Assembly (NCBI RefSeq): GCF_002902965.1
Contig: NZ_CP026107.1
Span: 496,001-560,000 of the forward strand
DNA length: 64,000 nt
Origin: Paraburkholderia hospita
Lineage (GTDB): Bacteria; Pseudomonadota; Gammaproteobacteria; Burkholderiales; Burkholderiaceae
Direction: 5' to 3'
Shown here: positions 1 to 13,111 of the stretch, one piece after another
Numbering within the stretch: position 1 is the first letter of the stretch
How the letters are laid out: each line of letters begins with the position of its first letter
The notes under the pieces: model-generated
Database searches by the model: none
Seen by the model: the letters and a program-made list of their open reading frames with translations, nothing else
Told to the model about the DNA's origin: nothing
Program-made: the position numbers and the translations under genes

Positions 1-2
1 TG

Positions 3-353
3 GTCGGGCGCGAGCGGCTTTACGACTGGTTTCAGCGCTCGCCGTGGCGCTTTGCAATGCACTACTACGTCAGCGAAACACTCGATGTGACAGATGCACT
101 TCATGCCACGGGCAGTTGGCGGCTTTGGCAACTCGCGTTGCGTGACGACGACGCGCATGCCGTACTGCTCGGCGCCGTCACCGAGGAGCAGTACGAGCGC
201 ACGCCCTCCGGCGAGTGGCTGATCAGTGACATGCGTTTCACACAGCTTCACATGATGGAGCCTGACGACCGGATGCTGCCGTTGGCGAGCGATTTCGCTT
301 CGTTGACTGCGCTGCGCAAATCCGGATCGAGCGAAATCACCCAAACCGTTTGA
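3..353 (+). CDS. SnoaL/NTF2-like protein, C-terminal part
   Basis: The gene is cut by the left edge: the frame is open from base 3 and ends in TGA at 351-353. The visible 116 residues read like the C-terminal part of a SnoaL-type NTF2 fold, with GRERLYDWF followed by SPWRFAMHYYVS and the long beta strands usual for the family. Small NTF2-like proteins act as isomerases, dehydratases or subunits in catabolic clusters. An ATG at 57 is in frame, but the upstream residues match the fold, so I treat it as internal. The stop overlaps the next start (TGATG), so it is probably the first visible gene of the PyrK/PyrD/Rieske/asparaginase-like operon. Its exact reaction is unknown. Confidence 0.7.
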   Translation, partial: VGRERLYDWFQRSPWRFAMHYYVSETLDVTDALHATGSWRLWQLALRDDDAHAVLLGAVTEEQYERTPSGEWLISDMRFTQLHMMEPDDRMLPLASDFASLTALRKSGSSEITQTV

Positions 354-1309
354 TGGATGGAATGCTGATGAACACACTTTCGACAGACCCGAATGCGCCG
401 CGAGACAGTGCGATAACCGACCCGTCGCGTGCGCGCGTGATCGCGTTGTGTCCGGACCGCGCGAACGCGGATACGGGCCAGACATGCCGGACTGCGCCGA
501 CGATTGCGGAGAACCAGTGCGAAGTGCGCTCGAACGCATGGGTCAATGCGGAGTACAAGCATCTCGTGCTGACGGCGCCCGGGCTTGCGCTGACGGCGTG
601 CGCTGGACAGTTCTTTCATCTCGCGTGTCCCGCGTCTAACGACGACTCACCGTACCTTCGCCGGCCGATGAGCATCTACTGCGTGAATGCAGAAGACGGC
701 CGCATCGAATTTCTCTACAAGGTGCAAGGCGCGGGAACACGCGGCCTCGCGCAGCTTCAGCCAGGCGATACGCTCGATGCATTGGGGCCGCTCGGGAAAG
801 GGTTCGAGCTTCCCGCATCGTCGGAGCCCGCGCACGTGCTGCTGCTTGGCCGTGGCGTCGGCCTCGCGACGATGGCGCCGCTCGCTCAGCAGGCGATCTC
901 AGCGGGTGCCCGCGTGACGGCAATTCTCAGTGCGCGCAGCCAGGCGTTGATGATGTCGGCAGACTTTCTGCAAGCGACAGGCGCGGATGTCATCACAGTC
1001 ACCGATGACGAGCAGACCAGCGACGTCGTTCAGGTCGAAAGCATCATCCGGCGGGTCTACGAGCGCAGGCGCATCACCTACGCCGCCACATGCGGTTCGA
1101 ACCGGCTGCTCGTCATGCTGCAACGCGTGGCTTCGCAATTGAACATCCCCGGGCAGGTCGCGCTAGAGCAGCGCATGGGTTGCGGCTACGGCGCCTGCTA
1201 CGCATGCGTGCGGCCATTTCGCAAAGAGCCGGGTTCCGAAGAGCTCAGCTACCGCCGCGTGTGCTGGGAAGGCCCCGTCTTCGATCTTCAGGAAACGACA
1301 TCATGGTAG
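353..1309 (+). CDS. PyrK-like FAD/2Fe-2S reductase subunit
   Basis: This is a ferredoxin-reductase-like protein of about 318 residues. It shows a flavin-binding RRPMS motif, a nucleotide-binding LLLGRGVGLATMAPLA segment, and a C-terminal cysteine cluster MGCGYGACYACV with a further Cys near the end (RRVCWEGPVF). That layout is diagnostic of PyrK, the electron-transfer subunit of type 1B dihydroorotate dehydrogenase, which moves electrons between NAD(H) and the PyrD subunit. The N-terminus is about 50 residues longer than a usual PyrK. ATG 353 overlaps the upstream stop; ATG 362 and 368 are alternatives. The 3' end overlaps the PyrD-like gene by 7 bp, so the two are probably translated together. 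Its location in a catabolic cluster suggests it is not the pyrimidine-biosynthesis copy. Confidence 0.85.
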   Translation: MDGMLMNTLSTDPNAPRDSAITDPSRARVIALCPDRANADTGQTCRTAPTIAENQCEVRSNAWVNAEYKHLVLTAPGLALTACAGQFFHLACPASNDDSPYLRRPMSIYCVNAEDGRIEFLYKVQGAGTRGLAQLQPGDTLDALGPLGKGFELPASSEPAHVLLLGRGVGLATMAPLAQQAISAGARVTAILSARSQALMMSADFLQATGADVITVTDDEQTSDVVQVESIIRRVYERRRITYAATCGSNRLLVMLQRVASQLNIPGQVALEQRMGCGYGACYACVRPFRKEPGSEELSYRRVCWEGPVFDLQETTSW

Positions 1310-2241
1310 ACCTCAGCGTCAATATCGGCTCGCTTGCGCTGGCCAATCCCGTCATGCCGGCGTCGGGCACGTTCGCCGAAGGCACGTCGCAGATATTCGA
1401 CCTCAACTGCCTGGGTGCGATCGTTACGAAGACGATCACCCATGACGTGCGCGAAGGCGTTCCGCCGCCGCGCGTTGCGGAGTTTCGCGACGCGACACTC
1501 TTTTCGATCGGCATTCCCAGCAAGGGCAGCGACTACTATATCGAACAGACGGTGCCGTACTACCGGAGGTACAGTCCGCCACTTGTCGCCAGCATCTCGG
1601 CGAACACGATCGAAGAGTTCGGCAGGCTCGCCGCAAAAATCAGTGTGCCGGGCGTCGCTGCGATCGAGGCGAATGTGTCGTGCCCGAACCTGAAGAAGAA
1701 CGGTCAGGCGTTCGGCATGGACCCCGACGCCACCTGGCAGGTCGTCAAGGCGATGAAGTCGGCGACCTCGTTGCCTGTCTGGCCGAAGATGACGCCGAAT
1801 GCGGGCAACGTCGTCGAAGTCGCGCTTGCTGCCGAAGACGCGGGTGCGGATGCCCTGGTCGTCAGCAACGCGATCCTCGCGATGGCCATCGATGTCGAGA
1901 CTTTCCGCCCTCGCGTGGCGAATGTCATGGGTGGGCTGACGGGCGCGGCCACGCGGCCGATCATGCTACGGATCGCTTACCAGTGCGTGCAGACCGTGAA
2001 GATTCCCGTCATCGGATGCGGAGGCATTGCGACCGCTGCGGACGCGCTCGAGTTTCTGCTGGCGGGCTGCAGCGCGGTGCAGGTCGGCACCGCCAATTTC
2101 GTTTCCCCAACGGCGATGCCGCGTTTGATCGACGATCTGACCGAGTGGTGCAAGCGGCATGGCGTGGCCAAGCTCACCGACATTATCGGTGCAGTGAAGA
2201 TGCATGAGCCTGTCGATCTTCAGCAACGGGTGGCGCTATGA
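1303..2241 (+). CDS. PyrD-like (type 1B DHOD family) flavoenzyme
   Basis: This 312-residue FMN TIM barrel belongs to the class 1 dihydroorotate dehydrogenase family. It keeps the catalytic loop NVSCPNLK (Cys127 as the expected base), the Lys in KMTPN (about residue 162), and the phosphate-binding GGIATAADALE and VGTAN segments. Start ATG 1303 lies inside the end of the PyrK-like gene; a longer open frame upstream is only the shadow of that gene. Two orotate-binding positions look altered. The usual NxxGL segment reads FSIGIPSKG (Phe67 in place of Asn), and the usual NT/NS pair reads NA (189-190). I therefore infer oxidation or reduction of a different, perhaps larger, substrate. The alignment is from memory, so the substrate argument is weaker than the family call. 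Confidence 0.85.
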   Translation: MVDLSVNIGSLALANPVMPASGTFAEGTSQIFDLNCLGAIVTKTITHDVREGVPPPRVAEFRDATLFSIGIPSKGSDYYIEQTVPYYRRYSPPLVASISANTIEEFGRLAAKISVPGVAAIEANVSCPNLKKNGQAFGMDPDATWQVVKAMKSATSLPVWPKMTPNAGNVVEVALAAEDAGADALVVSNAILAMAIDVETFRPRVANVMGGLTGAATRPIMLRIAYQCVQTVKIPVIGCGGIATAADALEFLLAGCSAVQVGTANFVSPTAMPRLIDDLTEWCKRHGVAKLTDIIGAVKMHEPVDLQQRVAL

Positions 2242-2609
2242 ATGCGGTGATCCAGATTATGTCCGCCGATGCGCGGCAGTATGTGTGCGGCGACAATGGT
2301 TGGTTTGCGATCGGCCCGCTCGACGAAGTCTTCGGCGCGCGCGCGTGTCGTGGCATCGACCTTGAAGGCGTCAAGATCGGACTGTTTCGTGTCGACGACG
2401 AGATTCACGCGCTGGACGACATCTGCACGCATGGCGCGGCGTTGCTCAGCGATGGAGAATTCGAAGGGCACGAAATCGAATGTCCGCTGCATGCCGGGCT
2501 GGTGGATGTGCGAACGGGCCGCGCGCTTTCCGCGCCCATCTCCCGCGACACACGGCGTCACGAGACGAAGATCGAAGGAGATGTGCTCTTCGTGAGGATG
2601 CAGGCATGA
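2238..2609 (+). CDS. Rieske-type 2Fe-2S ferredoxin
   Basis: This 123-residue protein has the two Rieske cluster ligand boxes, CTHG and CPLHAG, spaced as in Rieske ferredoxins of aromatic-ring dioxygenases and related systems. It has no signal peptide or membrane anchor, so it should be a soluble cytoplasmic electron carrier. Its ATG overlaps the stop of the PyrD-like gene by 4 bp, and its own stop overlaps the next start (ATGA). This coupling implies it works with the PyrK/PyrD-like pair, perhaps carrying electrons to or from it. No Rieske oxygenase alpha subunit is visible in the window, which makes its partner unclear. Confidence 0.88.
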   Translation: MNAVIQIMSADARQYVCGDNGWFAIGPLDEVFGARACRGIDLEGVKIGLFRVDDEIHALDDICTHGAALLSDGEFEGHEIECPLHAGLVDVRTGRALSAPISRDTRRHETKIEGDVLFVRMQA

Positions 2610-3703
2610 GCGACGATCAGGTGCAGGAGCGAATGGCGTCGAAGACGGTCGAGCGCGGAAACGCGCCTCGCAGCCGTCCGCGCATTGCGGTGATAGGCAC
2701 GGGCGGCACGTTTGCGATGCATGGCAGGCATCGGTTCGACTGGATCGAGTACGCGGACAGCGGCGTCATTCATCCGATCGACGATCTGCTGCAACGTCTG
2801 GGTGAACTTGCGCCGCATGCGGAGATCGTGCCTGTCCCGTTTCGGAGTCTGGGCAGCGTGTCGCTGCGTCCGCAGGATTGGCTCGAACTGGCCAGGTTGA
2901 TCCGCGATACGGCGCAAAACGATCCTGCGGTGACGGGTTTCGTGATCACCCACGGTACGGCGACGCTCGAAGAGACGGCGTGGTTTCTCGACCTCGTGCT
3001 CGATCTCGATCAGCCCGTCGTGTTGACGGGCGCACAGCGTCCCGCGAACACGGACGGCAGTGATGCCGCGGCCAATCTGCGCGGCGCCGTTGCCGTTGCC
3101 GCCGCGCCAGAATCGCGGGGTGCGGGTGTGCTCGTCGCGATGAGTGGCCTGTTCTTTGCAGCGCGCGACGTCACCAAGGCGGCGAGTTTCGAACTCGCGG
3201 CATTCGAGGCTCCGCCGTATGGCCCGCTAGGCCGGATCGACGCGGATGCCACGGTGGTCTGGCGCAGGCGCATCGTGTGCGACGAGCGGTCGCTTCGGCA
3301 CGTCGCGCGTTTTGCGTGCGTTCTCGATGCTTCGCCGCCGATTGAATTGCCGCGGGTCGATATCGCCATGTCATATGCGGGTGCGGACGGCGCGGCAATC
3401 GAGGCGTTCGTCGCGGCGGGTGCACGCGGCATCGTTTCCGCGGGCCTTGCACCGGGACGTCCCGCCGCCGGAGAGCGCGGGGCGCTGCGCGACGCGGTGG
3501 AGGCGGGCGTGGTAGTCGTGCAGGCAACGCGCTCTCCGCGTGGCGTGGTGCCGAAGCAGCGTTTTCTCGCAGCCGATGGAATACTCGCGGGTGGCGATCT
3601 CTCGCCGCAGAAATTGCGTATCGCGTTGATGCTGATACTCGCTTCCTGCCTTGGCGCGAAAGTGGAGAGTGATTCTGTGCAGGAAGCGTTGCTCGAGCTT
3701 TGA
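2606..3703 (+). CDS. Asparaginase-family amidohydrolase with altered substrate motif
   Basis: This 365-residue protein has the type II asparaginase fold. It shows the first catalytic Thr in IGTGGTF (Thr35), the second in HGTATLEET (Thr118), the TGAQRPANTDG loop, and the Lys in RDVTKAASF. In L-asparaginases the second box reads HGTDT; here the Asp is Ala119. That Asp binds the alpha-amino group of Asn, so its loss argues against a simple asparaginase and for hydrolysis of an amide lacking an alpha-amine. The start is ATG 2606, overlapping the Rieske stop; a longer in-frame extension back to 2480 only reads through that gene. It probably hydrolyses an amide product of the PyrD-like step, but this is inference. 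Confidence 0.82.
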   Translation: MSDDQVQERMASKTVERGNAPRSRPRIAVIGTGGTFAMHGRHRFDWIEYADSGVIHPIDDLLQRLGELAPHAEIVPVPFRSLGSVSLRPQDWLELARLIRDTAQNDPAVTGFVITHGTATLEETAWFLDLVLDLDQPVVLTGAQRPANTDGSDAAANLRGAVAVAAAPESRGAGVLVAMSGLFFAARDVTKAASFELAAFEAPPYGPLGRIDADATVVWRRRIVCDERSLRHVARFACVLDASPPIELPRVDIAMSYAGADGAAIEAFVAAGARGIVSAGLAPGRPAAGERGALRDAVEAGVVVVQATRSPRGVVPKQRFLAADGILAGGDLSPQKLRIALMLILASCLGAKVESDSVQEALLEL

Positions 3704-3757
3704 AATGAACTGGCCGCTTGCGTCATCAACCCAATCGATCGAATCATCGAGCCGAAC

Positions 3758-4477
3758 ATGCAATTCTCCTATCTCGTCACGTTCCACCATCCTGACCCGA
3801 GTGCGCGCATCAGCGACGAGGACTGGCAACGTGTCCGCGCGTGCGTCGACAAGACGCCAGCATTGAGTCGCGCGCGGCTATATACACCATCCGCGGCGAA
3901 GGACTATTACACCGACGACGGCCCGTCGCCGCTCTTCGCCATGCAACTCGATTTCGAAAGACTGGCGGATCTGGAGTCGGCGATCTGTCCCGGCGGACAC
4001 CTGCAACGACTCGCGAGCGACGCGTACCCAAGCCTCGATGCATGTACGGTCGAGCAGCAGGTCATGGCGAGGCGGCCTTTCCCCGTGCTCGATCCGCACG
4101 CACAGGTGCCGGTGGGCGCGCTGCCTTGTCAGTTTCTCGTTCACTATCCGGGTCGCGCTGAGAACTTCGACGAATGGCTTGACTACTATCTGTCGCATCA
4201 TCCGCAGATCATGAAGCACTTCGAAGGCGTGCGCGAAATCGAGATCTTCACGCGCGTGGATTGGGTCGACGCGATGCCGTGGAAGCGTGTGCATTACATG
4301 CAGCGCAACAAGCTGATGTTCGATAGTGCCGAAGCGATCACGCGCGCAATGAATTCGCCCGTCAGACATCAAATGCGCGCGGACTTCGAGAAGTTTCCGC
4401 CATTCGAGGGCAGCAATATCCATCATCCGATGTGGGCAGAAACGCTTTATCCACCAAAGCGCCCGGTCGAACCGTAA
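3758..4477 (+). CDS. Long EthD-like protein (probable tandem ferredoxin-like domains)
   Basis: This 239-residue protein has an EthD/DABB-like C-terminal half with LVHYPGRAENFDEWL followed by a YYLSHHPQIM segment. EthD proteins are normally about 100 residues. Here an N-terminal half of similar size precedes it, beginning FSYLVTFHHPDP, so two ferredoxin-like domains in one chain are likely. A paralogue of the same architecture lies at 9191-9883. EthD is known as a small protein required for ethyl tert-butyl ether degradation, and relatives are isomerases or monooxygenase-like proteins. The gene starts 54 bp after the asparaginase-like gene and is probably last in that operon. No catalytic residues could be assigned. 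Confidence 0.7.
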   Translation: MQFSYLVTFHHPDPSARISDEDWQRVRACVDKTPALSRARLYTPSAAKDYYTDDGPSPLFAMQLDFERLADLESAICPGGHLQRLASDAYPSLDACTVEQQVMARRPFPVLDPHAQVPVGALPCQFLVHYPGRAENFDEWLDYYLSHHPQIMKHFEGVREIEIFTRVDWVDAMPWKRVHYMQRNKLMFDSAEAITRAMNSPVRHQMRADFEKFPPFEGSNIHHPMWAETLYPPKRPVEP

Positions 4478-4935: not shown

Positions 4936-5892
4936 ATGAAGATTCACCAACTGCGTACACTCGTCGCGATTTCCGATACCGGAAGCATCCGCAACGCAGC
5001 GAAGGCGCTCGAACTTTCCCCGGCGGCTGTCACGAAGGCGATGCGCGAACTCGAAGCGCAAGCGGGCGTGCCGCTGATCGTTCGTGAAGCGTCCGGAATC
5101 ATTCTGACTGACGCGGGTCAGGCTCTGCTCACGCACGCCCGTCTGATGATCGAGCAGTTGCGGCGGGCGCAAGACGAGATGGATCGCTTCTCCGGAGCGG
5201 GCAGAGAGCGGCTGACGGTTGCCCTTCCGACCTGGGTTGCCATCGGGCTGCTCGGCGGCATCATGAAGCGCTTCGAGCAGGAAATGCCCGACACAAGGCT
5301 CGTTTTCTACGAGAGCCTGTTGAGCGTCGCGGTGCCGAAGCTGCGTGACGGCACACTTGATCTATCGGTGAATCGCGCCTGCCCGCCTTCAGGCCGCGAC
5401 GAGTTTCAGCAAGTGCCGCTTTTTCTTGCGAGCTACGCGGTCGTCGGCCGTGCAGGGCATCCGCTGGCCAAATGCCGCACGTTATCGCAACTCAAGGGCG
5501 CAAGCTGGGTACTGAATCGCGATTTCACGGAAAACGACGCTGAAGGCGATGGTCCGTTTGGAGAGTTCTTTCGACGCTACAAGCCGCGCGTACACGTCGC
5601 CCATTCTTCGACAATGATGATCGGCCTCATCACGAACACCGATGTGCTTTCGATCATGCCGTGGCCGCTCGCAGAGCTGCTGGTGGCCAAGGAAGGGCTG
5701 TGCGTGTTGCCAGTGACGGAGACTATCCCCGAGGTGGAAGTAAACCTGATGTACCGGCGTGGCACCCCGTTGAGCGCGGCGGCCAAGGTATTCATTCGAA
5801 GCCTGAAAGACACCATTATCGAACAGGCGAATGCATCGGACCCGATGAGCAAACGCATCTTCCATGCGGTCGAGTGCGTGCTGAGCCAATGA
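4936..5892 (+). CDS. LysR-family transcriptional regulator
   Basis: The product has 318 residues with an N-terminal winged HTH (MKIHQLRTLVAISDTGS, then LSPAAVTKAMRELE) and a LysR substrate-binding C-terminal domain. ATG 4936 is preceded by GGAG at 4921-4924. An upstream ATG at 4840 would add 32 residues with no family match. The HTH wording and position next to AbgB-like M20 genes resemble AbgR-type regulators of aminobenzoyl-glutamate utilisation, but specificity cannot be proved. It probably controls the flanking amidohydrolase genes in response to an aromatic or amide ligand. A strong intrinsic terminator closes the gene. Confidence 0.9.
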   Translation: MKIHQLRTLVAISDTGSIRNAAKALELSPAAVTKAMRELEAQAGVPLIVREASGIILTDAGQALLTHARLMIEQLRRAQDEMDRFSGAGRERLTVALPTWVAIGLLGGIMKRFEQEMPDTRLVFYESLLSVAVPKLRDGTLDLSVNRACPPSGRDEFQQVPLFLASYAVVGRAGHPLAKCRTLSQLKGASWVLNRDFTENDAEGDGPFGEFFRRYKPRVHVAHSSTMMIGLITNTDVLSIMPWPLAELLVAKEGLCVLPVTETIPEVEVNLMYRRGTPLSAAAKVFIRSLKDTIIEQANASDPMSKRIFHAVECVLSQ

Positions 5893-5971: not shown

Positions 5972-6232
5972 GCGGTTTGACCCGTCGAAGAATAAACATA
6001 ACCATTTCTCAGGCGGATGACAGTTCACTGGCTCCCACTCGACTGAGCCCGCAGCGTGCATCTATTCACGGACTGCACTCTGTCGTGCGGCGCGACATAC
6101 GCGTTCAACCGAGCAGCGCGGTAGCCGCTTCGTCCGCGAATCAGGATGGCCACACTGCGCCGGCCATTGATCTTCGAAATCGCAGCGCGTCATCGTGCGC
6201 TGCACGGGAATACCCTTCAATCACGCAGATTT

Positions 6233-7726
6233 ATGTCGAACCTGAACGAAGCAGAACGGGACGTGATCGCTCGCATCGAGCCTCACCGCGCGTTGTGTAC
6301 ACATCTTAGCGACAGGCTTTGGGACCTTGCGGAAACGGCCTACGCTGAACACGTTTCCGCTGACCTTCAGATCAGGGAGCTGACGCGCCACGGGTTTCGG
6401 GTGACCCGTGGCATTGCGGGCATTCCAACGGCCTTCGTCGCCGAATGGGGCGAAGGCGGGCCGGTCGTCGGTCTGCTAGGCGAATACGATGCGTTGCCTC
6501 AGCTGAGTCAAGCCGCGGGCGTGCCGAACCGGATGCCCGCCGCGAGTGGAGGCAACGGTCACGGTTGTGGTCACAATCTGCTGGGCGGAGCCGCGCTTCT
6601 TGCCGCGCTGGCGGTGCGCGATCATCTGCGCGACGCAGGCATCGCGGGACGCATCCGCTATTACGGTTGTCCCGCTGAAGAGGGCGGCGCGGGCAAGACT
6701 TTCATGACACGTGCCGGTGTGTTCGACGATGTCGACGCTGCATTGACGTGGCACCCGGCCAGCATCTATGCGATCGACGCGATGTCGACGCTGGCTACAC
6801 TGCATGTGCGCTTCACGTTTTCCGGGCGTGCAGCTCATGCGGCCGCCGCGCCGCATCTCGGACGCAGTGCGCTCGACGCAGTGGCGCTGATGAACGTGGC
6901 AGCCAACTATCTGCGCGAGCATGTGCCGTCCGATGCTCGACTGCATTACGCGATTCACGATACGGGCGGCCGGGCGCCCAACGTCGTGCAGGCTCGCGCC
7001 GAGGTGGTCTACCAGATACGCGCGCCCGAACTCGACGTCGTGCGGTCCATTCACGCGCGTTTGCTGCAGATCGCAGAGGGCGCTGCGATGATGACCGAGA
7101 CGACGATCAGCGCGCGTGTGGAGAAGGCGATGTCGAATATGCGTCCGAACCCGGTGCTCTCGGATCTGATGCATGCACGCATGCAGGCACTGGGACCCGT
7201 GCCTTTCGACGATGACGACCGTGCTTTTGCGCGTCAGATGCAGAAGGCGATCTCGCGGGAAGAAGCGCGTGCAAGCCTCGTCATCTTCGGCGCTGAGCAG
7301 TTGAAAGGCGAACTCCACGATGCAGTGTTGCCGGCGGAGCGGATGCCGCCCGTGCTGGCCGCATCCACCGATGTAGGCGACATCAGTTGGGTCGTGCCGA
7401 CGGCCCGTTGTCTTGTTCCATGCTTCGCGCTCGGCACGCCGTTCCATTCATGGCAACTGGTCGCGCAGGGCAAGTCGTCGCTTGCCCACAAGGGGATGAC
7501 GCACACCGCGAAGGTGCTTGCCGTCACCGCGACGGCGCTCTATCACGATCCCGCCACGCTCGCGGCGGCGAAGCACGCGCTGCAGGAGCAGACGGCGGAT
7601 GCCGCGTATCGCTGCCCGATACCGCCCGACGTCGAGCCGCCAATCGTCAGCCTCGTCGCTGATCAAGCGCCGCGTGGGACCTTGCGCGGTGCGTTTCCCT
7701 CGCAGTATGCAGGAGTTCAATCGTGA
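6233..7726 (+). CDS. M20-family amidohydrolase, AbgB-like (paralogue 1)
   Basis: This 497-residue metallo-amidohydrolase of the M20D group has the metal-binding and catalytic motifs LLGEYDAL, GHGCGHNLLG, CPAEEGGAGK, TWHPAS and STDVGDISWVVPT. AbgB-type enzymes cleave p-aminobenzoyl-glutamate; relatives cleave indole-acetyl and other N-acyl amino acids. The start was set at ATG 6233 because residues before it have no family match; the ribosome site is weak. The stop overlaps the GTG start of the next M20 gene. No signal peptide is visible, so it should be cytoplasmic. In AbgAB two different subunits pair, so adjacent paralogues 1 and 2 may form a heteromer. Confidence 0.88.
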   Translation: MSNLNEAERDVIARIEPHRALCTHLSDRLWDLAETAYAEHVSADLQIRELTRHGFRVTRGIAGIPTAFVAEWGEGGPVVGLLGEYDALPQLSQAAGVPNRMPAASGGNGHGCGHNLLGGAALLAALAVRDHLRDAGIAGRIRYYGCPAEEGGAGKTFMTRAGVFDDVDAALTWHPASIYAIDAMSTLATLHVRFTFSGRAAHAAAAPHLGRSALDAVALMNVAANYLREHVPSDARLHYAIHDTGGRAPNVVQARAEVVYQIRAPELDVVRSIHARLLQIAEGAAMMTETTISARVEKAMSNMRPNPVLSDLMHARMQALGPVPFDDDDRAFARQMQKAISREEARASLVIFGAEQLKGELHDAVLPAERMPPVLAASTDVGDISWVVPTARCLVPCFALGTPFHSWQLVAQGKSSLAHKGMTHTAKVLAVTATALYHDPATLAAAKHALQEQTADAAYRCPIPPDVEPPIVSLVADQAPRGTLRGAFPSQYAGVQS

Positions 7727-9183
7727 GTCAGTTGTCGGATAAACGGGTCGCCGAAGTAGCGCGTCTCGTCGATGCGAAGAAGGATGCGTCGATCAGGTTG
7801 TCGGACGAGATCTGGGCGTTCGCCGAAACGCGGTGGCAGGAGTTCCAGTCGGTCGACGCACAGATCGCCGTACTGGAACGCGAAGGATTTCGCGTGACGC
7901 GCAACGTAGGCGGCATCCCGACCGCCTTCAGCGCGCAGTGGGGCGCTGGCGGACCCGTCATCGGATTTCTGGGGGAATACGATGCCCTCGCGGAGATGAG
8001 CCAGGTGGCAGGCGCCGTCGAGCCCGTGGCCGCATGCGACGGCGGGAACGGCCACGGATGCGGTCATCATCTGCTCGGCGCTGGCGCGATGCTGGCGGCG
8101 ATCGCCGCACGCGACTATCTCGCGCGCCACGATATTGCGGGCACGGTGCGCTATTACGGTTGCCCTGCTGAAGAAGGCGGCGCGGGCAAGACCTATATGG
8201 CGCGCGAGAAAGCGTTCGACGATCTCGACGCCGCGTTGACCTGGCATCCAGGTCCTTATTCGGGCGTGTTCAAGTACAAGTCCCTCGCCGTGATCCAGAT
8301 GGCGTTCCGGTTCTCGGGCATTGCGTCACATGCGGCCGCGTCGCCACATCTTGGGCGCAGCGCACTCGATGCAGTCGAACTGATGAACGTCGGCGTGAAC
8401 TTCATGCGCGAGCACATGCCATCTGATGCGCGCGTGCACTACGCGATCACCGATGCAGGCGGATACGCACCGAACGTGGTGCAGGCCAACGCCGAAGTGC
8501 TGTACGTCGTCCGGTCGCCGGAACTCGCGGATGCGCGGCAACTGGCGGCACGGGTCGAGCAGATCGGACGCGCCGCCGCATTGATGACTGACACACAGGT
8601 GAGCATCGAATTCGATCGCGCGTGCTCGAATGTTTTGCGTAACGGCGTGATCGAGCGGTTGATGATGGACACATTGGAGATGCTGGGGCCACCCCCGTTT
8701 GACGCAGTCGACCAGGCGTTCGCAAGCGAACTGACGCAGCGGATGACCGAGGCGGATCTGCGCGAATGCATCGAGTCGTATCGCGGCGATCCGGGCGAAC
8801 TTGGCCTGAGCCTGCGCGCGCTGTCGCTCGACGACGAGCCGGGCACGCTGACGGGCTCGAGCGATGTCGGCGACGTGAGCTGGATCGTGCCGACTACGCA
8901 GTACCTCGGCGCCTGCTACGCGATCGGCACCAACATGCACACGTGGCAGCTGGTCGCGCAGGGCAAGTTGCCGGCGGCGCACAAGGGTTTGGTGCACGCA
9001 GCCAAAGTCATGGCCGACGCGGCCGTCCAGTTGTGCGTCGACCCGGCGCATATCGAGGCCGCGAAGGCCGAATTCGCAGTTCAAAAGGGCGGGCGTCCAT
9101 ACGTCAGCCCGATTCCTCCCGATGTGCAGGCGCCGCCCGCGAGAGCGGCGAGCCTTTCCTCATTCGAAAAAGAGAAGGTCTGA
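7723..9183 (+). CDS. M20-family amidohydrolase, AbgB-like (paralogue 2)
   Basis: This 486-residue paralogue of the preceding gene shows LGEYDALAEMSQ, GHGCGHHLLG, CPAEEGGAGK, TWHPGP and SSDVGDVSWIVPT, so all expected metal and catalytic motifs are intact. The GTG start at 7723 overlaps the upstream TGA and has AGGAG at 7711-7715. Translational coupling implies similar amounts of both enzymes. It is clearly diverged from paralogue 1, so the pair probably reflects different acyl or amino-acid specificity, or two subunits of one enzyme. The true substrate is unknown. Confidence 0.88.
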   Translation: MSQLSDKRVAEVARLVDAKKDASIRLSDEIWAFAETRWQEFQSVDAQIAVLEREGFRVTRNVGGIPTAFSAQWGAGGPVIGFLGEYDALAEMSQVAGAVEPVAACDGGNGHGCGHHLLGAGAMLAAIAARDYLARHDIAGTVRYYGCPAEEGGAGKTYMAREKAFDDLDAALTWHPGPYSGVFKYKSLAVIQMAFRFSGIASHAAASPHLGRSALDAVELMNVGVNFMREHMPSDARVHYAITDAGGYAPNVVQANAEVLYVVRSPELADARQLAARVEQIGRAAALMTDTQVSIEFDRACSNVLRNGVIERLMMDTLEMLGPPPFDAVDQAFASELTQRMTEADLRECIESYRGDPGELGLSLRALSLDDEPGTLTGSSDVGDVSWIVPTTQYLGACYAIGTNMHTWQLVAQGKLPAAHKGLVHAAKVMADAAVQLCVDPAHIEAAKAEFAVQKGGRPYVSPIPPDVQAPPARAASLSSFEKEKV

Positions 9184-9190
9184 CGTCACC

Positions 9191-9883
9191 ATGATTTCCT
9201 ACTTCCTGACCGCTTGCGACCACACATCGCCGGCGGGGGCGGACGCCTTTGCCGAGTTGCGCACGGAGCTTGCGCTCATACCGTCTCTGCGTTTTGCCGA
9301 ATTGCACCGACCGGCCGCCGTCGAAACCTACCATCGCGATGGCGCGGCGCCGCGGGCCGCGATGAGATTCGTATTCGAATCGATCGAGGCGCTCGAGTCT
9401 CAGCTCATGCCACGTGGCCGACTGCACACGCTCGTGCGCTCCTCGCTATGGCGACATATCGCGGGTGAGCAAATGACCCAGCAGGCAATGCTCACGCGGA
9501 CCTTCCTGCCGCTGCGAAATATTCCGCGAGACGTGGACGGCGAACACGCATGCAGCTACCTCGTGCATTACCCGGGGCAAGCGGAGGACTTCAATGCGTG
9601 GCTCGGCTACTACGTCCGTCACCATCCGCAGATCATGCTCGATTATCCCGGCGTGATGCAGGTCCAGGTCTTCACACGGCTCGACTGGTGCGATGCGATG
9701 CCTTTCGAACGGGCCGCATACATGCAGCGCAACCAGCTCACCTTCCCGTCGATCGACGCGCTGATGCGTGCGCTCGATTCGCCTGTGCGTGCGCGCATGC
9801 GGGCCGACAACGAGAACTTTCCCACATTCTCTGGCGGCGCGAAGCACTTTGCAATGCATACGTCTTTCGTAAGCGGGCTCTGA
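9191..9883 (+). CDS. Long EthD-like protein (paralogue 2)
   Basis: This 230-residue paralogue of the protein at 3758-4477 shares the segment LVHYPGQAEDFNAWLGYY, then HHPQIM, a VFTRLDWCDAMPFERA stretch and a C-terminal RARMRADNENFP. It starts at ATG 9191, 7 bp after the M20 stop, so it belongs to the same transcript. A longer open frame upstream is the M20 shadow. The repeated linkage of this long EthD-like type to amidohydrolase genes suggests it is an enzyme or accessory subunit of the route. It does not resemble a monooxygenase large subunit. Confidence 0.7.
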   Translation: MISYFLTACDHTSPAGADAFAELRTELALIPSLRFAELHRPAAVETYHRDGAAPRAAMRFVFESIEALESQLMPRGRLHTLVRSSLWRHIAGEQMTQQAMLTRTFLPLRNIPRDVDGEHACSYLVHYPGQAEDFNAWLGYYVRHHPQIMLDYPGVMQVQVFTRLDWCDAMPFERAAYMQRNQLTFPSIDALMRALDSPVRARMRADNENFPTFSGGAKHFAMHTSFVSGL

Positions 9884-9948
9884 TCGTCTGCAAGTAACCT
9901 GCTTTGAATAAACACTAATCTTTCAAATGGTTTGGAGTGCATAAAAAA

Positions 9949-11065
9949 ATGACAACGTGCGGGAAGACCGTCATCGCCATCGCCATCGCGGAACTGATCT
10001 ATGCATCGAACGCATGGGCGGGTGACTCGTTTCAGATTCTCGTGCCCGACGGATTCGTCGGGACAAGCGGAAGTGTCCTGTATGGCGTGGCCGATGCGGG
10101 CCTGCAATACAGCCACGCGGGCAGCAACAATGTACTCGGAATGGAAAGCGGCGCGGGCGCGACATCGCGATTCGGTTTTTTCGGTGTCGAGCAGCTTGGC
10201 GGCGGCCTGTCATTGCGTTTCAATCTGGAGTCGGCGATCAAGCTGACGAATGGCACGGCAGGCGGTACCACAGCGCAGAACGAAAGCACGTTCTTCAGCC
10301 GGGAGGCGAATGTCGCGCTTGTATCGAACGACTGGGGCCGTCTCAAGTTGGGCCGCCAATATCCGACCGAACTTTCTCTGGCGCTCGACCCGTTCTATGG
10401 CGTCGGTGCGTTTTCCCCGTATGGGTCGCTCGCGGCGCTCAGTTCCGACCTCGGCGCAGCAGACGACAATCGGCGACTACCGGATCAGCAATGCAGTCGC
10501 GTACATGACGCCGATTATCGGCGGGTTCCAGTTTGAAGTGATGGGCGCACCGCGAGGCGTCACGACGCCCGGCTATCCTGAAGCGTACTTCGAGGGCGCG
10601 CAACTCGAATATCTGAACGGACCGCTATATCTCGGCGTGTTCTATGACGTCATCCATACGGACCCGACAGCAAGTTTGCCTTCGGTGAAGAACAAATGGC
10701 TCGGTGCCGGCGCGATGTACAACTTTAGCGGTGTGCGATTGTCGTATGAGTTCAACATGACGGTGCCGGATTACCCAGGCTACTTCATAGCCACGACACA
10801 TATGATTGGCGTGAACGCGCCCCAGGGGACCAACGACGTCAAGTTCTCTGTGGTCTATAGAAACGTCGCGGGCAAGGCCGCGGCCAATTCGTGGGCGCTA
10901 GGGCTCGGCTACGACTACAACCTGTCGAAAGTGACGGCGCTCTATGCCCGCCTCGGCTATGTCATCAACCAGAAGCATGCGATCGCTACGCTGGCGAACG
11001 GATCGTTGAGCCAGCCGGGTGACGATCAAAGCGTGATTGCGATCGGTATCCGCAAACGCTTCTGA
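9949..11065 (+). pseudogene. Gram-negative porin with an internal frameshift
   Basis: This is a Burkholderia-type outer-membrane general porin. A signal-like N-terminus leads to SVLYGVADAGLQYSH, an RFGFFGVEQLGGGLSLRF strand pair, KLGRQYPTE, and the C-terminal Phe-ended strand IGIRKRF. The first part is read in one frame and stops at 10536. The match continues one base later from about 10455-10470 (TIGDYRISNAVAYMTP) to 11065. One extra base in that interval explains the break. It may be a true mutation, phase variation or a sequencing error. ATG 9949 has GGAG at 9934-9937; GTG 9937 is an alternative. When intact, it would supply outer-membrane uptake for the cluster. Confidence 0.85.
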
Positions 11066-11176: not shown

Positions 11177-12640
11177 TCATGCGGGCACGTGTTGCGGCGA
11201 ACGCGCCGATGGGCCCGCAGCGCGTGCAGGCGGCGGCGTTACGTCAGCGGGTATTGGGCATTGATACGGCTTCATGCCGCGCTTGCGATGGAGTTCGTCA
11301 CGGGCGGCGCGCAACGTTTCGGGTTGTCCTGCGAGATCGATCGCAGTCGCCGCGAGCGTTTTGGCGGCAAGCAGCATGCCTTTGTGCGCCAGCGAAACCT
11401 TGCCTTGCGACACCATTTGCCATGAATGAAAGCCCGTGCCCCACGCATAGCAAGCCGTCAGGCACTGCGTTGTCGGAGCTGCCCAGCTCACGTCGCCGAC
11501 GTCTGTGGATCCCGTAACGGGCCGCTCAACATCGGCGCGATACGCCAGAATCTCGGGGATGATAGGGCGCGGATCGCGCAGCGCCGCCGCGAAATGCCGG
11601 GACGCGTTCGCAAGGTCGTCGGGGTTGATGGTCTTCTGTATGTCGGCAGCGAAGGCGACCTCGTCCGCTGTCACCTGCATGCTGCCGATAGCCTGCATGT
11701 TCCGGTCGAGCACGGCGTCGAGGGTGTCGTTGTGCAGTACGTTCGAGCAGGCTTTATCGAACAGCATCTCGACGCGCGTACCCGTCATCAGCGCGGCACC
11801 TTCGGCGATCTGCTTGACGCGCTCGAACAGGTCGATCGCTTCGGGGCTCGTTCTCGCGCGGATCGTATAGAGCGTCTCCGCGAGTGCCGGGACGACATTC
11901 GTCGATATACCGCCGGAATTCACGTATGCAAAATGAACACGTGCTTGGTCGGGCATGTGCTCGCGCAGGTAGTTGACGCCGATGTTCATCAGCTCGGCCG
12001 CATCGAGTGCGCTGCGCCCGAGGTGCGGCGCGAGCGCCGCATGCGATGCTTTGCCGTGAAAGCGGAAATACGCCTGGACGTTGGCCAGCGTCGCGTTCAT
12101 GAAAACGGAGTTGGCTACCGACGGGTGCCAGCACAGCGCAACATCCAGATCGTCGAACAGGCCGGCGCGGGCCATGAAGGTCTTCCCGGCTGCGGCTTCT
12201 TCCGCGGGGCAACCATAGAAGCGTACGGTGGCTTCGATGCCGTTCGCTGCGAAGTAATCGCGCGCCACGACGGCGGCCAGATGCGATGCCGTGCCAAGCA
12301 GATGGTGCCCGCACCCATGCCCATTGCTGTTCGGGGCGCCTGCGGCCGGTCTGCATACTGTGGCACCTGCCTCCTGGTTCAGGCCTGCAAGCGCGTCATA
12401 TTCGCCCAGAAATCCGATGACAGGGCCGCCGGTGCCCGCCTCTGCGACGAAGGCAGTCGGCATGCCGGCGACGCCACGCGTGACCTTGAAGCCCGCCGCC
12501 TCGATCGCCGATGCGTGCCGCTCTGCCGATTCAAATTCGGCGTAACGCATTTCGGCGAGGGACCAGATGTCGTCGGCCAGCGCGATGTAGTCGTTCTTCT
12601 TCGACTCGACCTGTTCGGCCACGTTTGCAATATGTTTCAC
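11177..12640 (-). CDS. M20-family amidohydrolase, AbgB-like (paralogue 3)
   Basis: The product has 487 residues with FLGEYDALAGLNQ, GHGCGHHLLGT, CPAEEAAAGK, CWHPSV and STDVGDVSWAAPT. All M20D landmarks are present; the EEGG box of the other copies reads EEAA here. The chosen start is the GTG at 12640, which has GAGGAG six bases upstream; a TTG at 12670 is less likely. It is transcribed away from the MHS transporter at 13112, with 471 bp between them. As the third copy within 6.5 kb, it supports a pathway that hydrolyses several related N-acyl or amide substrates. Confidence 0.88.
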   Translation of the reverse strand: MKHIANVAEQVESKKNDYIALADDIWSLAEMRYAEFESAERHASAIEAAGFKVTRGVAGMPTAFVAEAGTGGPVIGFLGEYDALAGLNQEAGATVCRPAAGAPNSNGHGCGHHLLGTASHLAAVVARDYFAANGIEATVRFYGCPAEEAAAGKTFMARAGLFDDLDVALCWHPSVANSVFMNATLANVQAYFRFHGKASHAALAPHLGRSALDAAELMNIGVNYLREHMPDQARVHFAYVNSGGISTNVVPALAETLYTIRARTSPEAIDLFERVKQIAEGAALMTGTRVEMLFDKACSNVLHNDTLDAVLDRNMQAIGSMQVTADEVAFAADIQKTINPDDLANASRHFAAALRDPRPIIPEILAYRADVERPVTGSTDVGDVSWAAPTTQCLTACYAWGTGFHSWQMVSQGKVSLAHKGMLLAAKTLAATAIDLAGQPETLRAARDELHRKRGMKPYQCPIPADVTPPPARAAGPSARSPQHVPA

Positions 12641-13111
12641 TACGGCTCCTCGCGTGTTGCATGTGCTCAAGGCACGTGCGATATGAGAAAAGGGCAGGGC
12701 GTCGACTTCCCTTTATTTAGCGTATTGCGTTGCGATGACGAGTGGAAGCTCTGTTCCGGTAGCGCTGTTCACTTTCGGTTGCGCAGCGCGCGTGACGCGG
12801 GAGCCTCGTTATCGGGCGTGTCTCTCGCCTTCATCCATTTCCTTGCGCATCGCAGGCAGCCGGTGGCGGCGAGCGCCGATTGAATCGACGGCATGAAGCG
12901 CAAGTGAAGAAGCACGCGTTCTCTCAGTCTGCCGAAGCGGATGAGATGGGATGGTTGTCGCAGTTGCGTGCCGGTATGCAAGAGTTACGCCACTGCCTGA
13001 TCTGTGCGGGGAATTTTGACATCGCGTTGACACTATCAACGCCCAACAGCACTATTTTTCCAAGCGGACGGCAGGGGTCGTCGGCAATTCGATATCAACA
13101 GGAGACAGTTT
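12641..13111. promoter_or_regulatory. Divergent promoter region between M20 gene and transporter
   Basis: These 471 bases separate two divergent starts and must hold both promoters. No coding frame with family resemblance was found. The stretch at 12700-12745 is less GC-rich and may contain the M20 promoter. I could not assign -10/-35 boxes or an operator with confidence. Confidence 0.5.

Follow-up and report, generated by a model that had tools for sequence, protein, structure and literature searches.

At the start of a 64,000-nucleotide stretch of DNA from the soil-type bacterium Paraburkholderia hospita (the window; contig NZ_CP026107.1, positions 496,001 to 560,000 of the forward strand) lie the last genes of an operon that encodes relatives of dihydroorotate dehydrogenase (DHOD) and of asparaginase, both with replaced substrate-binding residues, together with a Rieske oxygenase system. 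An earlier note had drawn attention to four of these genes, for a PyrK-like reductase, a PyrD-like flavoenzyme, a Rieske ferredoxin and an asparaginase-like hydrolase. That observation is real; the markers in the proteins and the recurrence of the set exceed what chance would produce. The genes, their frames and their overlaps (of 4-7 bases) are as the note gave them, and the four do adjoin one another, but the set comprises about eleven genes rather than four, and the ferredoxin is one part of a whole oxygenase system that includes the Rieske oxygenase itself. The window shows only the tail of the operon, which starts about 4 kb upstream, in a 20-kb stretch designated L002, and runs OxA-U138-cupA-cupB-FdR-SnoaL-PyrK-PyrD-ferredoxin-asparaginase-EthD. 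Judging from sequence, we tentatively suggest that the window holds the final genes of an operon for breaking down an N-heteroaromatic carboxylic acid. The genes on which the argument turns are as follows.

L002:15988-17277, opening the operon after a divergent TetR gene: OxA, Rieske oxygenase alpha subunit, 429 amino acids.
Window 1 to 353, forward strand: 3' part of a SnoaL/NTF2-like gene that begins at L002:19769, outside the window (Pfam SnoaL_4, 27.6 bits; cut-off 24).
Window 350-368 (start uncertain) to 1309, forward strand: PyrK-like FAD/[2Fe-2S] electron-transfer subunit (Pfam DHODB_Fe-S_bind, 51.3 bits).
Window 1303 to 2241, forward strand: PyrD-like FMN enzyme of the F67/A190 clade (Pfam DHO_dh, 212 bits; NF005574, 325.3 bits).
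Window 2238 to 2609, forward strand: Rieske-type [2Fe-2S] ferredoxin of the oxygenase system (Pfam Rieske, 53.5 bits; C-x-H...C-x2-H motif).
Window 2606 to 3703, forward strand: asparaginase-fold amidohydrolase with an altered alpha-amine site (Pfam Asparaginase, 174.3 bits).
Window 3758 to 4477, forward strand: EthD-like protein (TIGR02118, 32.8 bits; cut-off 30.5).

The PyrD-like protein shares the two-subunit layout of the class 1B DHOD of L. lactis (PyrD-PyrK): the adjoining PyrK carries, in a motif scan, the four-Cys motif MGCGYGACYAC...VCWEGPVF, and PyrD retains K43, the NVSCPN loop (N124, C127, N129) with its catalytic Cys, and N189, the Asn for the second amide. Unlike the L. lactis enzyme, it is encoded in a Rieske operon and has lost the class 1B orotate contacts Asn67 and Thr/Ser194 (here 67 and 190); in an alignment to the L. 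lactis PyrD-B structures, F67 takes the place of the Asn in MLNAIGL and A190 that of the Thr in INT. The earlier note had read these two replacements beside an intact NVSCPN loop, and the alignment bears it out, the normal residues being found at neither position. Among the closest 120 of 7855 homologue matches, K43, C127, N129, N189 and A190 never vary, and residue 67 is Phe (117) or Trp (3). In T. cruzi DHOD, Asn67 contacts the N1-H/C2=O side of orotate, Asn194 contacts N3-H/C4=O and Lys43 the carboxylate (PMC4427443); Ser195 has been described as an additional orotate contact in DHOD (PMC12060061). When motifs and the L. lactis alignment are used to map the T. cruzi numbers to the window protein, the enzyme would keep its recognition of carboxylate and lactam and lose that of the N1-H/C2=O side. 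Since K43 and N189 are kept and N67 is lost, we predict that its substrate is a carboxylated lactam without orotate's N1-H/C2=O side.

The clade also has its own gene neighborhood. We compared 85 loci (the best 80 of 481 relatives in a GTDB genome scan, plus five plasmid loci), counting neighbors within 9 kb of PyrD and requiring 45% identity for an OxA match. A clustering into gene families was rich in frames opposite real genes, and only its families of evident function were used. The counts are of related sequences, not independent events, and absences are weaker in the nine loci shorter than 15 kb. PyrD is N67/T190 in 52 loci, F67/A190 in 29, C67/A190 in two, and M67/A190 and M67/G190 in one each. 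Near the N67/T190 type lie a Zn hydrolase (50/52), orotate phosphoribosyltransferase (41), HyuA/HyuB (1) and a distant asparaginase (1; L086, 29% identity), and OxA in none. Near the F67/A190 type lie PyrK (29/29), U138 and cupA (28 each), OxA, asparaginase, SnoaL and ferredoxin (27 each), FdR (26), cupB (22), EthD (18) and a racemase-like gene (11), and the Zn hydrolase in none. As to the exceptions, the conserved set is absent from the fetched stretch of L023; OxA of L022 lies 9.8 kb off, just past the limit; ferredoxin and asparaginase are not present in the stretch of L045; and cupB went undetected in L023 and six Paracoccaceae loci, with a second cupin listed in the annotation of L090. 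On a tree of 93 PyrD rows, a single branch (100/98) parts N67/T190 from all others, and the F67/A190 type requires one or two changes; the rows leave out L004, L005, L006, L095, L126, L128 and L129, most of which repeat another locus (L128 apparently does not). PyrKD of a third type, with C67 or M67 and A190 or G190, stands with HyuA/HyuB hydantoinase genes in 4/4 loci (L067, L068, L075 and L079). EthD lies near C67/A190 PyrD in 2/2 loci; EthD and racemase genes are present in L068 and L075, a molybdenum (Mo) hydroxylase in L067 and L079, and no Rieske oxygenase of the OxA kind lies near any of the four.

The nearest other relatives of the PyrD (about 51-61% identity) belong to orotate catabolism clusters (transporter-PyrK-PyrD-Zn hydrolase, often with dihydroorotase and/or orotate phosphoribosyltransferase). 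Both kinds of cluster have the PyrK-PyrD pair after a transporter; the orotate clusters keep N67/T190 and partners of the Zn-hydrolase or dihydroorotase type, the Zn hydrolase standing near PyrD in 0/29 F67/A190 loci, whereas the window cluster has a Rieske oxygenase instead. The most ordinary explanation would be that an orotate or dihydroorotate enzyme has drifted and, by chance, shares an aromatic operon with a normal asparaginase. Both proteins do match ordinary families strongly, and PyrD exceeds two DHOD cut-offs (NF005574, 325.3 against 269; TIGR01037, 291.2 against 270). However, the replacements at the substrate contacts are fixed while the catalytic residues are kept, the Zn hydrolase is missing, and the genome encodes a separate type-2 PyrD (435.8 bits, over its curated cut-off); we regard this explanation as highly improbable. 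The earlier note's view that the operon is probably not for pyrimidines is supported, as regards their synthesis, by that separate enzyme and by a clade whose residues, context and place in the tree set it apart from PyrD of the orotate type. A plasmid gene set from Klebsiella (L143: MFS, PyrK-position gene, PyrD, Zn hydrolase and dihydroorotase), the one plasmid examined among 57 Klebsiella plasmid records that match PyrD, looks like a portable orotate-catabolism cassette.

Aligned to E. coli asparaginase II, the asparaginase-fold protein places A119 on the Asp of THGTD and keeps T35, T118 and K191, in agreement with the earlier note, which had placed Ala119 at the Asp for the substrate amine and found both catalytic Thr residues retained. 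Like E. coli AnsB, a type II L-asparaginase of the same fold family, it has the catalytic Thr pair and Lys and their companions (T12, Y25, S58, T89 and K162 in E. coli numbering; here T35, Y49, S84, T118 and K191). Unlike AnsB, it has A119 for Asp90 of the alpha-amine site, R285 for Asn248 and F320 for Glu283; Asp90 and Glu283 are the residues that we take to bind the alpha-amine. Under three alignment settings, 32/32 cluster asparaginases have Ala at D90, Arg at N248, Gln at D281, Pro at N246, Phe, Tyr or Trp at E283 and Val or Thr at Q59, with Q59 and E283 weak as markers and, like N248, variable in ordinary asparaginases. The count leaves out L002, L004, L005, L006, L095, L126, L128 and L129, and the L086 asparaginase (29% identity) was set apart from it; the proteins of L126, L128, L005 and L129, checked separately, carry the same markers, and at D90 and N248 those of L126, L128 and L134 conform as well. 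The closest 120 of 6951 homologue matches have Ala at D90 in 120/120 and Arg at N248 in 119/120, and two ordinary asparaginases used as controls both have Asp at 90. With Asp90 replaced by Ala throughout the cluster members and homologues, the note's view that asparagine is not the substrate is probably correct, and the altered site suggests an amide without an alpha-amine.

OxA has the C-x-H...C-x2-H Rieske motif and a D...H...H iron site, and its ferredoxin and reductase are encoded with it (motif scans, Pfam, NCBIfam). The system resembles the multi-component Rieske dioxygenases HcaEFCD and AndAabcd in its Rieske/Fe alpha subunit, Rieske ferredoxin and pyridine-nucleotide reductase; it differs in having U138 as a partner and, in place of a recognized beta subunit, the SnoaL_4 protein, possibly an oxygenase small subunit or accessory. 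OxA lies far under curated NCBIfam cut-offs (best 124.9 against 670) and scores 75.5 bits against the IadDE structure 9o71; the top NCBIfam of the ferredoxin is AndAb (89.2 bits, under the cut-off of 150). After U138, a small protein whose best Pfam match is under cut-off (PF21274, E 0.028), come the cupin-like cupA, the cupin cupB, the pyridine-nucleotide ferredoxin reductase FdR and SnoaL. Acinetobacter, Rhodococcus and Sphingomonas also have U138-like proteins after more distant OxA homologues (33-38% identity), which makes U138 a probable partner of this family of oxygenases. In Acinetobacter, the homologue has catechol genes and a styrene/indole monooxygenase as neighbors. Upstream of OxA lie an arylmalonate-decarboxylase/EutA-like "racemase" gene and an MFS gene of the aromatic acid/H+ symport type (282 bits, under the cut-off of 418.55).

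A single skeleton could fit both pockets: an unsaturated lactam acid that would be reduced and then opened. We infer each reaction, its place in the order, its direction and its substrate from what is observed in the gene set, its conservation, the residues, the split in the tree and the neighbors. The acid would probably enter by the aromatic-acid-type transporter encoded upstream. PyrK-PyrD would move NADH electrons to a lactam resembling orotate, N-C(=O)-C=C-COO-, in which carbon replaces orotate's N1-H/C2=O side; the C=C bond adjoining the carboxylate would be reduced, a reaction of which DHOD is capable on orotate. The asparaginase-fold enzyme would hydrolyze N-C(=O)-C-C-COO-, which is asparagine-like with the alpha-amine replaced. 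OxA, the ferredoxin and FdR, with U138 and SnoaL as likely accessories, would then dioxygenate the freed amino-arene to a catechol, and ring cleavage would follow. Reduction before opening fits the presence of PyrKD relatives, in three contexts, next to three different C-N hydrolases (the Zn hydrolase, HyuA/HyuB and the asparaginase-like enzyme), and a redox step followed by amide hydrolysis on an N-containing substrate, as the earlier note had it, remains the best reading. Benzo-fusion of 2-pyridone-4-carboxylate gives 2-oxo-1,2-dihydroquinoline-4-carboxylate, our leading candidate for the exact substrate, if a doubtful one. A Mo hydroxylase would form it from quinoline-4-carboxylate in some lineages; elsewhere it would be taken up from plants. 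The compound has been found, together with dioxindole-3-acetate methyl ester, in the fruit of Rubus chingii (PMC3131600). Kynurenate and quinaldate are disfavored; they offer no adjacent NH/C=O to the conserved N189 and keep N1-H, the opposite of the residue pattern, and the literature match listed for them was an unrelated review. Homarine gave no lead in the literature matches listed.

A Mo hydroxylase gene is in fact present in 10/29 F67/A190 loci (L024-L028, L032, L034, L036, L038 and L090) and beside both M67 loci (49-50% identity), and L053's genome has one at a distance of 6 kb from OxA; the L024 enzyme has quinoline 2-oxidoreductase as its best PDB match (456 bits). Weaker matches also lie beside five N67/T190 loci (L044, L046, L047, L057 and L088) at 29-35% identity, one 156-residue piece reaching 60%. 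Such neighbors would also suit a monocyclic ring, 2-hydroxyisonicotinate or citrazinate (2,6-dihydroxyisonicotinate, or 1-deazaorotate), and citrazinate is the main rival to the quinolone acid. Here, PyrDK would reduce the ring, which would be opened to 2-(carbamoylmethyl)succinate, the asparaginase-like enzyme would free tricarballylate, and the Rieske system would hydroxylate the ring. A pyridone-4-carboxylate fits the loss of N67 with K43 and N189 kept, and 2-(carbamoylmethyl)succinate, being asparagine with NH3+ replaced by CH2COO-, fits A119, the invariant Arg at N248 and the loss of the acid at E283. This route nevertheless leaves the catechol dioxygenase and beta-ketoadipate genes beside the clusters unexplained, and we consider it unlikely, if still a serious contender. 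Kretzer and Andreesen reportedly described an isonicotinate pathway, and Lingens is said to have traced quinoline-4-carboxylate via 2,3-dihydroxyphenylsuccinate.

The catechol genes are a hint, from the neighbors of a minority of the clusters, that catechol may be the Rieske product. Catechol 1,2-dioxygenase lies beside Cupriavidus L022 and L128 (365-366 bits, slightly under the cut-off of 392), and catechol 2,3-dioxygenase beside L127 (438.4 bits, over the cut-off of 320.2), with a 99.7% identical copy in Pandoraea L045; Azospirillum L134 has an intradiol dioxygenase with catB, catC, pcaD, pcaF and CoA-transferase genes, Pseudooceanicola L032 has PcaI, PcaJ and PcaR, and L038 a pcaF match at its edge. 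None of the N67/T190 loci has a catechol dioxygenase match; two of them have thiolase (pcaF) matches at 35-44% identity and one has a catB match at 27%. Catechol genes nearby would also be expected if N-aryl cleavage came first, that is, if the Rieske system split an N- or O-aryl amide to a catechol and an amide or heterocycle that PyrDK and the asparaginase-like enzyme then processed. In its favor, no dihydrodiol dehydrogenase was recognized among the conserved genes, though none was searched for by name, and Cupriavidus L022 has a PyrK-PyrD-EthD unit separate from an OxA...asparaginase unit. But the Mo hydroxylase link would be left unexplained, and the predicted carboxylated lactam leads to no natural N-aryl substrate known to us; cleavage first is an improbable beginning.

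Beyond the operon, the window continues with a regulator and with looser associates of the cluster.

Window 4936 to 5892, forward strand: LysR regulator (Pfam HTH_1, LysR_substrate), recurring 3' of the cluster in L010 and L011.
Window 6146 to 7726, forward strand: M20 amidohydrolase, a looser associate (TIGR01891, 269.3 bits; cut-off 153.75).
Window 7723 to 9183, forward strand: second M20 amidohydrolase, a looser associate (TIGR01891, 268.6 bits).
Window 9194 to 9883, forward strand: second EthD-like protein (40-41% identity to the first).

Each of the two M20 types occurs within 9 kb of PyrD in 5/29 F67/A190 loci, and the second EthD-like gene adjoins M20 genes in L010, L011, L014, L015, L023 and L124. 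Together, window positions 6146-9883 and 11177-12670 hold three M20 amidohydrolases and the second EthD-like gene, and some Paraburkholderia and Cupriavidus likewise have portions of the unit close to the cluster. A porin-like gene (window 9937-11065) is split over two frames, by pseudogene formation or sequencing error, and has relatives near the cluster in L011 and L023. The M20 amidohydrolases may release acids from amino-acid conjugates, a possibility that brings in the auxin-derived oxindoles, 2-oxindole-3-acetate or dioxindole-3-acetate and their conjugates. M20 would free the acid, the asparaginase-like enzyme would open the lactam, the Rieske system would give a catechol, and PyrDK would reduce an unsaturated form. 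Oxindole acids share the N-C(=O)-C-C-COO- skeleton, the M20 genes near 5/29 loci exceed the TIGR01891 cut-off, catechol genes lie nearby, and the Rubus fruit contains the dioxindole ester beside the 2-quinolone acid (PMC3131600). On the other hand, the oxindoles present no clear need for PyrDK, and the M20 gene of the sphingomonad loci has no match to the window M20 proteins at E 1e-5; we think them decidedly unlikely substrates.

Several observations weigh against the proposed conversion of 2-oxo-1,2-dihydroquinoline-4-carboxylate to a catechol. In the asparaginase-like enzyme, the control u158080 has Thr at 59, Ser at 248 and Asp at 283; because it too varies at these three positions, Asp90 is the sole clean marker, the changes at Q59, N248 and E283 being weaker and no more than suggestive. 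In the E. coli enzyme, Gln59 is an amine contact and Asp90 and Glu283 count as key residues; the P. horikoshii enzyme has Thr and Lys at the Gln59 and Glu283 positions (PMC8470970). An additional carboxylate would suit the invariant Arg at N248 better than an aryl group would. The Mo hydroxylase is tied to quinoline only weakly: CO dehydrogenase CoxL follows in the same PDB list at 447 bits, no NCBIfam family cut-off is reached, and in 24 of the 28 cluster-bearing genome entries searched (three pairs of which share coordinates and are likely duplicates) no match to the Mo hydroxylase exceeds 38% identity. A catechol dioxygenase adjoins only 2/29 F67/A190 loci, plus L127, L128 and L134. 2-(2-Aminophenyl)succinate would yield a 3-substituted catechol, whereas plain catechol is what the cat/pca genes of Azospirillum and the enzyme of the Pandoraea type suggest. 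By the PDB codes that we take to be those of OxoO, the 36 PDB matches of OxA include no entry of that name, so the OxoO-type 8-monooxygenase of the P. putida 86 quinoline pathway has no named counterpart among them. Finally, Azospirillum L134 keeps the other cluster genes with only a remnant of PyrK-PyrD. That remnant is annotated as a 97-amino acid "hypothetical protein" (L134:16984-17274, A. ramasamyi plasmid NZ_CP029830.1) and is a fused PyrK-PyrD piece, 48% identical to PyrD over 83 residues and with 14 PyrK residues besides; as such, it weakens the use of Azospirillum as proof that PyrDK is optional.

The search for the same gene order in other genomes located the set in many of their genera: Paraburkholderia, Caballeronia, Chitinasiproducens, Cupriavidus, Pandoraea, Herbaspirillum, Novosphingobium and Sphingobium, as well as Paracoccaceae, with one cluster on a Paroceanicella plasmid and one, without intact PyrKD, in Azospirillum. 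Within these groups it is patchy. An OxA probe was positive in 9/299 genomes of the family, the window's genome included; elsewhere it picked out the center genome alone, in the class (369 genomes) as in the orders to which L053's genome (244) and L030's genome (147) belong. The cluster looks like an accessory catabolic trait. In L045 and L126 (a Pandoraea captiosa contig) PyrK is read as two overlapping frames, and as one in the near-identical L127; Caballeronia sp. SEWSISQ10-4 has two copies of the cluster (L024 and L017), with a Mo hydroxylase beside one in the fetched stretch.

The earlier note knew of no described pathway with this gene set, and we found none in the open-licence literature, subscription journals lying mostly outside the search; no paper there joins these genes, and, apart from the papers cited here, the matches listed seem by title and abstract to concern chemistry or unrelated subjects. 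In the quinoline pathway of P. putida 86, a Mo hydroxylase acts first. A flavin ene-reductase, XenA, also acts in that pathway, which runs through 8-hydroxycoumarin, but XenA is an old-yellow enzyme, unlike PyrD (PMC5519977). Quinoline degradation has also been described in Rhodococcus (PMC9029321). The Variovorax iad auxin pathway was considered and set aside: asparaginase, dihydroorotate and cupin are all missing from the main text of PMC12633357.

It is possible, though doubtful in so specific a form, that the operon represents a new aerobic route in which a DHOD-derived ene-reductase dearomatizes a plant 2-quinolone-4-carboxylate and an asparaginase-derived lactamase opens the product for a Rieske dioxygenase. 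The same joint proposal would make the route a carbon analogue of orotate catabolism, its reductase having diverged by a change of specificity. In a larger context, if our reading is true, the DHOD and asparaginase families hold substrate-switched members that carry old names in many records; database names on such members include "dihydroorotate dehydrogenase" and "L-asparaginase." For renaming them, F67/A190 would serve as a simple sequence marker in PyrD and, in the asparaginase, Ala for Asp90 together with Arg for Asn248. The operon would also define what is probably a reductive route, dependent on O2, for the catabolism of an N-heterocyclic acid, along with a short list of candidate compounds.

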